Origin: Kiritimatiellota bacterium
GTDB taxonomy: Bacteria > Verrucomicrobiota > Kiritimatiellia > Kiritimatiellales > Tichowtungiaceae
Reading direction: 5' to 3'
Length of the DNA: 57,982 nt
Assembly: GCA_014381785.1 (NCBI GenBank)
Contig: JACNKZ010000064.1
Location: 1-57,982 of the forward strand
Shown here: one piece after another, positions 26,696 through 29,599 of the stretch
Layout: the number at the start of each line of letters is the position of its first letter
Numbering within the stretch: the first letter of the stretch is position 1
The notes under the pieces: model-generated
Seen by the model: only the letters and a program-made list of their open reading frames with translations
Told to the model about the DNA's origin: nothing
Database searches by the model: none
Position numbers and translations under genes: made by a program

Positions 26696-29599
26696 ATGAA
26701 CCGCATCGCCAAAGTCGCTGTCGACCTCTCGCTGGATCGGGAGTTTGACTATCTGATTCCCGAATCGCTGCAGGCCGCCGTCGAGATCGGGTCGCGCGTG
26801 GAGGTTCCTTTCGGCAAGCGGTCGGTCACCGGCTTTGTGGTGGGTCTGGCGGAGAAGTCCGATTTTGACGAGCTCAAGCCGATCGGCAAGGTGCTGGGGG
26901 AAAAATCGCTGGTGACCGAAACGGTGATGGAGCTGGCGCGCTGGATGTCGGCCTATTACCTCGCTCCGTTTGAAACCTGTGTGCGGTCTGTTCTGCCTGC
27001 TGTGGTGCGCAATAAAGCGAGCGGCGCCAAGACGCAGTTGACGGTTTCTTTGGTTGAAAAAAACGTAGACGCGACGCCCTCGTCGCGTTTCTTAGGCTTT
27101 GATTCGGCGCATCCGGTTTCGTATCCATCGGGTGGAAATCTCCCGCACTGGCGGCAGGACGGAACGACCTATTTCATCACCTTCCGGCTGGCTGATTCTT
27201 TACCAAAAGGGAAACTCGATCGGTGGAAACGCGGACGCGATTTGTGGCTTGAGGAGAATCCTAGACCGACGGATGAAGAGAACGTAGACGCGCCGCCCTC
27301 GTCGCGTTTAACAGAGTGGCAGAAGGAGTACCGGAGTCGTTTCACAGAAAAGTTTGAACAATGGCTGGATGCCGGAGAGGGCTCCTGTTTGCTGAAACAG
27401 CCGGAGTTGCGTGAAGCACTGGTTGAGATATTCCAGAAAAAGAACGGGCAGAAGTATTGGTTGGAAGGCTATGTGGTCATGCCAAATCATATTCATGCGC
27501 TGCTGACACCTATTGGAGAGCATCGACTTTCTGCAATTGTCCAAAGCTGGAAATCGATATCCACCCGGAGAATTAATGAGCTGCGGGGAGGAAAAGGGTC
27601 GGTTTGGCAGAAGGAATCATTTGATCACATTGTTCGGAATGCAGAGAGCCTGTTAAAATTCCAACAGCACATCGAAGACAACCCTAAGTTTTTAAAGGAA
27701 GGACAGTTTGAGTTGTTTTTAACGCGACGAGGGCGTCGCGTCTACGATGAAAACCCTGGCGATGTCCCGTCTGCGTTAACGCCCAAACAGCAGGCGGTTA
27801 TTGATGTTTTGCAAACGGCTTCCCCCATGCTCCTGTCGGAGCTGACGGTTCAGGCAGAAGTATCTGCCGGAACCGTCAAAACCCTCGAGAAGAAGGGGCT
27901 GGTGGTGATTTCAAGCGAATCGATCTATCGCGATCCGCACGAAGGGATTGAGATTTTAAAAACCGAGCCGCTTAAGCTGATGCCGCAGCAGGCCGACGCG
28001 CTTGAAAAAATAATCGGGGCAATGGCCGAACCGGAGCCGCCGGTGCTTCTGCTTCACGGGGTGACCGGCTCGGGCAAAACCGAGGTTTATCTGCAGGCGA
28101 TTGCTCATGCGCTGGAGCAGGGGCGCGGCGCGATTGTGCTGGTGCCGGAAATCGCACTGACGCCGCAGACGGTTGACCGCTTCCGCGCCCGCTTTGCGGA
28201 CAAGCCGGAACGGGTGGCGGTGCTGCACAGTTCTCTTTCGGACGGCGAACGCTACGACGAGTGGCACCGCATTCGCTCGGGTGAGGCGCAGATTGTGATC
28301 GGCGCGCGCTCGGCGCTTTTCGCGCCGGTGGAAAATCTCGGTTTGATCGTGGTGGATGAGGAGCACGAGCCGACCTATAAGCAGGATGAAGCGCCGCGCT
28401 ACAGCGCGCGCGATGCGGCAGTGATGCGCGGCCGGATGGAACACTGCGCGGTGGTTCTTGGCTCGGCGACCCCCGCGCTGGAGTCGTACTGCAATGCGAA
28501 GAACGGCAAATACACCTATCTCGACCTTCCCGTCCGGGTGGATCATCGCCGGATGCCGGCGATCCGCATTGTGGATATGCGTATTGAGGCGCAGCGCACA
28601 GGACAGCACGGGCTGTTTTCCAAGGAGCTGATTGAGGCGATCTATTGCCGGCTTGACCGCGCCGAGCAGACGATGATTTTTCTGAACCGCCGCGGCTTTT
28701 CGTCGTCGTTGGTTTGCCCAGACTGCGGAACTGTGAGCGAGTGCGAACACTGCAGCGTGAGCATGACCTATCATAAGGCGCGCGCGCGGCTGGTCTGCCA
28801 TATCTGCGGCGAGGAAAAGACCGTTCCCGTGCGCTGTCCGGAGTGTGCATCTAAAGAGTTTAAGTATTCCGGGGCGGGCACAGAAAAAATTGAAGAGGTG
28901 ATGGCAAAGCTGTTCCCGAAGGCGCGGATCGCCCGGATGGATTCGGATACGATGCGCAAAAAGAACGCGCACCGCGATGTGCTGGCGCAGTTCCGGGTCG
29001 GGAAGATCGATATTCTGATCGGCACGCAGATGATCGCCAAGGGGCTCGATTTTCCGAACGTGACGCTGGTGGGCGTGGTGAATCCGGACCATGCACTGCA
29101 TATGGCTGATTTCCGTGCGGGCGAGCGGGTCTTTCAGCTGCTGACGCAGGTGGCGGGACGCGCGGGCCGCGGCGAGGTGGAGGGCGAGGTGCTGGTGCAA
29201 ACCCACACCCCGCACCATCCCGCGATTCAGTTTGCCCGCCGCATGGACTTCGAGGGCTTTTGCGATCAGGAGCTGGCGTTTCGCAAGGAACTTCGCTATC
29301 CGCCGTACGCTCATTTGACCTGCATCACGTTGCGCGGCAAGCACGAGGCGACCGTAGAGAAAACCGGAGAGCAACTTTTCCAATGGTTGGAAAAATGCGT
29401 GTCGCAGGAGGTGATGCTTTCGCCGCTGGTGCCGGCGCCGATCAGTCGTGCGCGCGGCGAATATCGCTATCAGATTTTACTCCGTGCGGAAAAGACCGGC
29501 GTGATGACGCGCGCGATCCGCCGGGCGGTTGGCGCAATTGAAAAATGGCCAAAGGGTGTAAAGTGCACGATCGACGTGGATGCAACCTCTCTTTTGTAG
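26696..29599 (+). CDS. priA: Primosomal replication-restart helicase PriA carrying an in-frame RAYT insertion
   Basis: 967 aa against ~730 for the family. PriA reloads the replisome at stalled forks. Residues 1-120 are the 3'-DNA-end-binding domain. Residues ~121-352 are foreign (see the mobile element at 27056-27753). The protein resumes with the winged helix (LTPKQQAVIDVL...), Walker A LHGVTGSGKTE (~res. 453), the DEEH box, SATPALES, eight zinc cysteines (CPDCG, CEHC, CHICG, CPEC), and TQVAGRAGRG. Removing the 231-residue insert gives 736 aa, a standard PriA. The insertion is at the domain boundary after the 3'BD, where extra sequence is likely tolerated. A dyad at 29378-29392 encodes FQWLE. 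No other priA is visible in this window. Confidence 0.93.
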   Translation: MNRIAKVAVDLSLDREFDYLIPESLQAAVEIGSRVEVPFGKRSVTGFVVGLAEKSDFDELKPIGKVLGEKSLVTETVMELARWMSAYYLAPFETCVRSVLPAVVRNKASGAKTQLTVSLVEKNVDATPSSRFLGFDSAHPVSYPSGGNLPHWRQDGTTYFITFRLADSLPKGKLDRWKRGRDLWLEENPRPTDEENVDAPPSSRLTEWQKEYRSRFTEKFEQWLDAGEGSCLLKQPELREALVEIFQKKNGQKYWLEGYVVMPNHIHALLTPIGEHRLSAIVQSWKSISTRRINELRGGKGSVWQKESFDHIVRNAESLLKFQQHIEDNPKFLKEGQFELFLTRRGRRVYDENPGDVPSALTPKQQAVIDVLQTASPMLLSELTVQAEVSAGTVKTLEKKGLVVISSESIYRDPHEGIEILKTEPLKLMPQQADALEKIIGAMAEPEPPVLLLHGVTGSGKTEVYLQAIAHALEQGRGAIVLVPEIALTPQTVDRFRARFADKPERVAVLHSSLSDGERYDEWHRIRSGEAQIVIGARSALFAPVENLGLIVVDEEHEPTYKQDEAPRYSARDAAVMRGRMEHCAVVLGSATPALESYCNAKNGKYTYLDLPVRVDHRRMPAIRIVDMRIEAQRTGQHGLFSKELIEAIYCRLDRAEQTMIFLNRRGFSSSLVCPDCGTVSECEHCSVSMTYHKARARLVCHICGEEKTVPVRCPECASKEFKYSGAGTEKIEEVMAKLFPKARIARMDSDTMRKKNAHRDVLAQFRVGKIDILIGTQMIAKGLDFPNVTLVGVVNPDHALHMADFRAGERVFQLLTQVAGRAGRGEVEGEVLVQTHTPHHPAIQFARRMDFEGFCDQELAFRKELRYPPYAHLTCITLRGKHEATVEKTGEQLFQWLEKCVSQEVMLSPLVPAPISRARGEYRYQILLRAEKTGVMTRAIRRAVGAIEKWPKGVKCTIDVDATSLL
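27061..27090 (+). repeat. REP hairpin, left end of the RAYT unit
   Basis: AACGTAG followed by stem ACGCGACG-CCCT-CGTCGCGT (27069-27088). Confidence 0.9.
27281..27310 (+). repeat. REP hairpin, internal, same orientation
   Basis: AACGTAG then ACGCGCCG-CCCT-CGTCGCGT, one mismatch in the stem. Encodes NVDAPPSSRL, the same peptide type as the first copy (NVDATPSSRF). Confidence 0.88.
27721..27746 (-). repeat. REP hairpin, right end, inverted
   Basis: Reverse complement of the left REP: stem ACGCGACG-AGGG-CGTCGCGT followed by CTACG. With the left copy it makes a head-to-head pair enclosing the transposase. Confidence 0.9.
29378..29392. repeat. TTCCAA-N3-TTGGAA dyad inside priA
   Basis: Exact copy (spacer TGG), encoding FQWLE near the PriA C-terminus. 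Confidence 0.85.

Follow-up and report, generated by a model that had tools for sequence, protein, structure and literature searches.

The RAYT (TnpA-REP) proteins of subclass 2.4, also known as Bertels group 4, are the closest described relatives of the element reported here. They carry NH[IV]H, W and YIxxNP motifs and show the 4er8 fold, and in the REPtron they are bordered by inverted flanking GT[AG]G REPs; REPs are also found in frame inside the RAYT gene (PMC6006769, PMC3733652). Our element resembles them in these features. Described RAYTs are stand-alone genes of 150–325 aa between host genes, whereas the RAYT studied here is part of a host open reading frame and has neither a start nor a stop codon of its own. 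We call such copies embedded, and stand-alone copies free.

Palindromic repeats are also known in frame and unspliced inside functional proteins, both as intragenic REPs and as Rickettsia palindromic elements (RPE), and in this our insert is similar to them (PMC3733652). The proteins that hold them are often DNA-repair or tRNA-modifying enzymes, and intragenic GTAG repeats are most numerous in Opitutus terrae (Verrucomicrobia) (PMC3733652). Those inserts are 20–80 aa long and derived from non-coding DNA, whereas here an autonomous element is inserted together with its enzyme. Prior work already describes REPs lying in frame within genes, REPtrons, and RAYT genes of subclass 2.4 that contain REPs (PMC3733652, PMC6006769). 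The main survey of RAYTs left out "unexpectedly long" members.

Two further systems are comparable. Inteins with homing endonucleases are likewise in-frame selfish nuclease modules at fixed sites in essential proteins, scattered among relatives. They combine a homing endonuclease with splicing, whereas the embedded RAYT is an HUH nickase whose domain should remain part of the mature protein. IStrons and group I introns with IS200/IS605 transposases also render a Y1 transposase element harmless to the host gene (PMC4227781). They differ in having a self-splicing RNA; an Rfam search detected no group I/II intron or IStron RNA around the RAYT here. The literature we searched holds no account of a RAYT as an in-frame domain of a host protein, in agreement with an earlier note on this DNA, which is no proof of absence. 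A likely reading of the insert is a REPtron of the TnpA-REP subclass 2.4 type (REP–RAYT–inverted REP) with no start or stop of its own, which is translated as an extra, unspliced domain of the host protein and undergoes homing-like turnover.

Results and Discussion

The window, i.e. the whole stretch of 57,982 nucleotides that was analysed, contains a single uninterrupted frame of 967 codons at 26696–29599 (+), which is priA with an in-frame RAYT insert. The product was identified as primosomal protein N′ (NF004066, 903 bits against a cut-off of 813). Pfam assigned five domains to it: PriA_3primeBD (residues 6–101), Y1_Tnp (238–327), DEAD (432–594), Zn_ribbon_PriA (683–708) and PriA_C (870–962). 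The RAYT/Y1 domain is placed between the PriA 3′-DNA-binding domain (26711–26998, +), which aligns to the solved PriA structure 4NL4, and the winged-helix region, helicase core, Zn ribbon and C-terminal domain (27758–29596, +; Pfam and alignment). The earlier note had read the locus as a RAYT with its REPs in frame within priA, and the 967-codon frame, the Pfam matches and the inverted REPs bear this out. A second intact priA, which would have spoken against that reading, was searched for; the genome, which is 98.4% complete, gave one priA match. A frameshift or assembly error at this gene is unlikely because 17 independent priA genes in the order have a RAYT at the same linker.

We infer from the sequence that the full-length fusion is translated and that the host enzyme is active. 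A structure model of the fusion had a pLDDT of 54 overall, with most of the RAYT part above 90 and the linkers (residues 104–130 and 347–398) below 50. The PriA part of this model is uninformative because the alignment had no PriA rows (a search of viral contigs gave no PriA relatives).

The conserved outer ends of the insert are GTAG (at 27065) and CTAC (ending at 27745). The element between them (27065–27745, +) measures 681 nt, or 227 codons, and is in frame. The left REP (27064–27089, +) consists of GTAG and a ACGCGACG/CGTCGCGT hairpin and is read as NVDATPSSRF. The right REP (27721–27746, −) is its inverted copy and ends in CTAC(G); the two are 26 nt long with 100% complementarity. A third copy (27283–27311, +) lies in frame inside the RAYT and is also present in the homologues of genomes G003 and G004. 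It precedes the HUH motif, in contrast to the usual place between HUH and Y (PMC6006769). The REP core occurs five times in the window at ≤3 mismatches against 0.03 expected from shuffles, a count that includes both strands of self-similar hairpins.

GAAAA words at 27056 and 27749 had been taken as the borders of a unit of exactly 231 codons. Their spacing is indeed 693 nt, or 231 codons; the conserved unit, from GTAG to CTAC, is the one of 227 codons. GAAAA was rejected as a target duplication, and is not supported as a border, because it occurs five times in an 810-nt stretch of this locus and the homologous borders in G003 and G004 lack it.

The RAYT catalytic domain (Y1, HUH) spans 27137–27691 (+) and was recognised by our profile A1 (see below), by Y1_Tnp above its Pfam cut-off, by NF047646 (REP_Tyr_transpos) with a score of 59–65, which is under its cut-off of 80, and by AlphaFold. 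The isolated module was predicted with a pLDDT of 88, and its best fold match in the PDB is 4er8, a REP-bound RAYT. The NH[IFV]H, WQ and YIxNNP motifs and the in-frame REP inside the gene place it, by motifs, in subclass 2.4, and cognate dispersed REPs with a GTAG/GTGG foot flank it. The frame is open through both REPs into the host, in contrast to the REPtron proper with its stand-alone RAYT gene. Many near-identical copies per genome, as for IS200/IS605 elements, were not found; the genome has two copies of the subfamily, which are 39% identical.

The HUH motif MPNHIHA (residues 262–268; 27479–27499, +) is intact. At the position of the catalytic tyrosine (residue 325; 27668–27670, +), assigned from the Y115 motif "YIYINP" of E. 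coli TnpA-REP, the window copy has a histidine (CAC) in the context "QQHIEDNP". RAYT proteins have a Y1 core related to TnpA of IS200/IS605 and typically cut single-stranded REPs at CT-type dinucleotides. TnpA-REP cleaves REP, cleavage requires the tyrosine, and a Y115F mutant of the E. coli enzyme has been described (PMC8266576). The window copy is thus probably dead as a nuclease through Y→H. The sister genome G004, whose PriA C-terminal part is 94% identical, retains the tyrosine in its priA RAYT, as do G003 and G023, and the window copy looks like a recently inactivated resident. A REP-processing role is unlikely for PriA of this genome because the catalytic tyrosine is lost.

A second, related REP–RAYT–REP unit with intact HUH and tyrosine lies in frame in hypF of the same genome (G000:C74:31504–32244; L025 2184–5270). 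In this genome the hypF-type REP matches 43 times, at intergenic sites as well as in frame inside genes. Many of the matches form inverted pairs with a spacing of 27 bp; it is an amplified REPIN family. None of the other Y1 loci of this genome is flanked by it. Four tandem 81-bp units with the hypF-type REP core were seen in a 726-aa frame (L230 1480–1739; G000 C83:28179–28438). In genome G008 the RAYT embedded in hypF (L027/L046) has an in-frame TAG near the contig end, i.e. HypF is broken.

The search for RAYT domains in other housekeeping frames, proposed in the earlier note, was positive far beyond expectation. After removal of duplicates we found 118 embedded RAYTs of the subfamily, 95 of them flanked on each side by 110 residues or more, in six phyla. 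Of the 118, 17 lie within 110 aa of the C-terminal end of the frame; several of these are contig ends or plain terminal fusions. With profile A1, built from 16 RAYTs of the genus, all 49 matches in the order that score at least 230 bits lie in open frames of 368–1198 aa, and the hypF of G008 is the only one with a stop codon. Across the phylum, roughly 150 matches were listed, of which about 56 (counted by hand) fall in frames of at least 430 aa. Named genomes add Bacteroidota (including the isolate Flavobacterium branchiophilum; coverage of this phylum rests partly on the ten named genomes searched), Planctomycetota (Brocadia), Pseudomonadota and Chloroflexota. Pontiellaceae bacterium B12227, a cultured carrier, has inserts in priA and in a radical-SAM gene. 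Within the genus (14 genomes), the RAYT is found in priA in seven genomes, in cca in four, in xseA in three and in hypF in two, as well as in a B12-radical SAM gene.

Besides priA, roughly 30 host families across several bacterial phyla carry a RAYT in frame, with identities assigned by Pfam/NCBIfam. The hosts include PriA, the CCA-adding enzyme, the exonuclease VII large subunit (xseA), HypF, MetH, CarB, LeuS, ValS, IspG, mevalonate diphosphate decarboxylase, CmoB, adenosine deaminase, MgsA, LysA-like proteins and glycosyltransferases, and also HsdR, type IIG and MmeI-like enzymes and DUF1156/HmaB methylases. L051 and L183 are not counted as LeuS: NCBIfam identifies L183 as ValS, and L051 can be aligned with L183. 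A test restricted to these host families showed no out-of-frame interruption of them by any of the 54 free loci. The functional link with PriA at forks suggested in the earlier note is not supported, since the same RAYTs occur in HypF, MetH, CarB, IspG, LeuS/ValS, mevalonate decarboxylase and glycosyltransferases; a PriA-specific fork role is not needed.

Other arrangements were noted in passing. The B12-radical SAM (DUF4080) gene has two RAYT positions depending on the species (L047/L127/L141/L143/L155 versus L018/L145/L146). In G003 and G009, a RAYT-bearing priA and a RAYT-bearing xseA are about 10 kb from each other (L014 and L015). A RAYT in a similar position within Eco57I/type IIG-like methylase-restriction proteins was seen in several phyla (L063, L050, L053, L068, L076, L110, L166, L167, L188), and embedded RAYTs may be carried from one phylum to another by defence genes. 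The RAYT is a C-terminal extension of the host gene in L160/L161 (TatD), L145 (Fic) and L173 (fumarase). Such extensions perhaps arose through loss of the host stop codon and are a possible intermediate.

We compared priA among close relatives, as the earlier note had proposed, and found the same site empty or occupied by a REP, a REPIN or a RAYT of either of two lineages (A and B). Within the genus, REP and RAYT are both absent in G001 and G008, G012 has a lone in-frame REP, G007 has a REPIN without a RAYT, and seven genomes have REP–RAYT–REP. In the PriA tree, genes with A, with B and without a RAYT are intermixed, and type A as one clade was rejected (p-AU 2e-66). Synonymous divergence at 4-fold sites is higher in the RAYT than in the flanks for many priA and xseA pairs (0.51 versus 0.29 and 0.17 for G000/G004; 0.80 versus 0.33 and 0.39 for G013/G003), and a difference in rate may account for part of this excess. 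For cca, the divergence of the RAYT matches that of the host, and this RAYT looks, from the sequences, vertically inherited without turnover. The priA site has what is expected, by analogy, of a homing element: a fixed position, presence and absence among relatives, and an allele history independent of the host gene. On the RAYT tree, the host labels need 50 changes compared with 113 when shuffled, i.e. host genes cluster, and the free/embedded state alternates at least 21 times.

Genomes with a type-A priA RAYT are rich in the type-A REP. The six carriers have 66, 71, 19, 21, 18 and 10 copies (20-mer matches with ≤2 mismatches). The median is 20 in carriers versus 1 in 37 other genomes (p=1e-4; p<0.01 within each of two genera); the genomes are related and not independent points, and shared ancestry may explain part of the association. 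The window's genome, in which the RAYT has no tyrosine, is the lowest carrier, and three of its ten matches are inside priA. Embedded RAYTs probably work on REPs. Inverted REPs flank 115 of 130 embedded rows, in which some loci are counted more than once, and 41 of 53 free rows, against a control level of 5%; embedded copies thus have them no less often than free copies do.

The active site is maintained in embedded copies. HxH was found in 118 of 118 and the tyrosine in 116 of 118, although motif-based retrieval biases HxH conservation upward for loci L046–L125; 89 embedded rows stem from profile or family searches. Both motifs are preserved in 116 of the 118 embedded RAYTs and in 53 of the 54 free ones, the exceptions being the Y→H of the window copy, which retains HxH only, and truncated ends. 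The dN/dS of the RAYT part is 0.03–0.19 in close pairs, similar to that of the host part. The RAYT part of the fusions is under purifying selection.

Such constraint would also be expected of a domesticated fusion domain, captured once per gene and serving the host (for example by binding single-stranded DNA for PriA), with no ongoing mobility. The vertical pattern in cca fits this explanation, many of the host proteins work on nucleic acids (priA, xseA, cca, restriction enzymes), and RAYTs have previously been termed domesticated transposases (PMC8266576). However, the priA site is polymorphic in close relatives, the hosts include HypF, MetH, CarB, IspG and LysA, and the REPs flank the RAYTs and are amplified genome-wide. 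We regard domestication as unlikely.

Less probable still is that RAYTs insert anywhere and that only in-frame copies in tolerant linkers of selected genes survive, as neutral and slowly decaying cargo. In-frame REPs and RPEs are tolerated in proteins (PMC3733652), and the lost tyrosine of the window copy and the stop in the hypF RAYT of G008 resemble decay. The low dN/dS and the intact HxH and tyrosine nevertheless speak against neutrality for most copies, because cargo held only to its frame would drift at nonsynonymous sites.

Removal of the insert after transcription or translation, through an unrecognised intein, an intron or ribosomal bypass, would leave a normal host protein. The position in essential genes resembles that of inteins and introns, and the terminal inverted repeats could pair in the mRNA and hold the borders together. 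The earlier note had described the insert as intein-like in position but without splicing, and we agree: Pfam gave no match to a Hint or other splicing domain with conserved junction residues, and the borders are REP-encoded and variable. Rfam gave no intron and only sub-threshold snoRNA chance matches, the insert is almost entirely coding, and the frame is open and free of stops through the REP borders, which neither splicing nor bypass requires. We consider removal very improbable. An artefact of assembly or annotation (MAG chimerism, frameshift errors) is essentially refuted, since, even though most genomes are metagenome bins, there are 17 priA examples with repeated same-site insertions, the genomes of 2.2–8.7 Mb are in few contigs, and cultured isolates carry embedded RAYTs (Flavobacterium branchiophilum, L063; Ca. 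Viridilinea, L120).

For a REPtron that resides in its host as an unspliced domain, the following course can be proposed. The host promoter and ribosome-binding site would express the embedded RAYT, which would fold on its own, held by flexible linkers at a domain boundary or in a loop, and would leave the host enzyme functional. The RAYT would nick single-stranded REPs and spread REPs and REPINs, some of them in frame within further genes. Helped by REP-mediated recombination or strand transfer, the complete unit could be gained, lost or exchanged at host sites where a REP is already present. Residence in a needed gene would guard the unit from deletion because only in-frame, precise loss is tolerated.

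Conclusion

Our analysis suggests a mobile element that survives as an unspliced domain of host proteins. There is about an even chance, in our judgement, that embedded REPtrons form a widespread selfish class that homes into REP-bearing host sites, is expressed and protected by the host, and seeds REPINs, of which the in-frame ones are possible next landing sites. RAYTs persist as mostly single-copy genes over long times, and REPtrons may move as units; embedded RAYTs give a testable answer to how this may come about, namely that RAYTs hide in genes that cannot be lost, with repeated replacement evident from the histories of their sites. They also account for the unusual length of proteins annotated as PriA, XseA, the CCA-adding enzyme, LeuS, MetH and type IIG enzymes in the PVC group and elsewhere among bacteria, and are natural examples of tolerance to domain insertion. 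Embedded RAYTs would be a second solution, beside inteins, to insertion into an essential gene, in which the element is tolerated as a domain and not spliced out.
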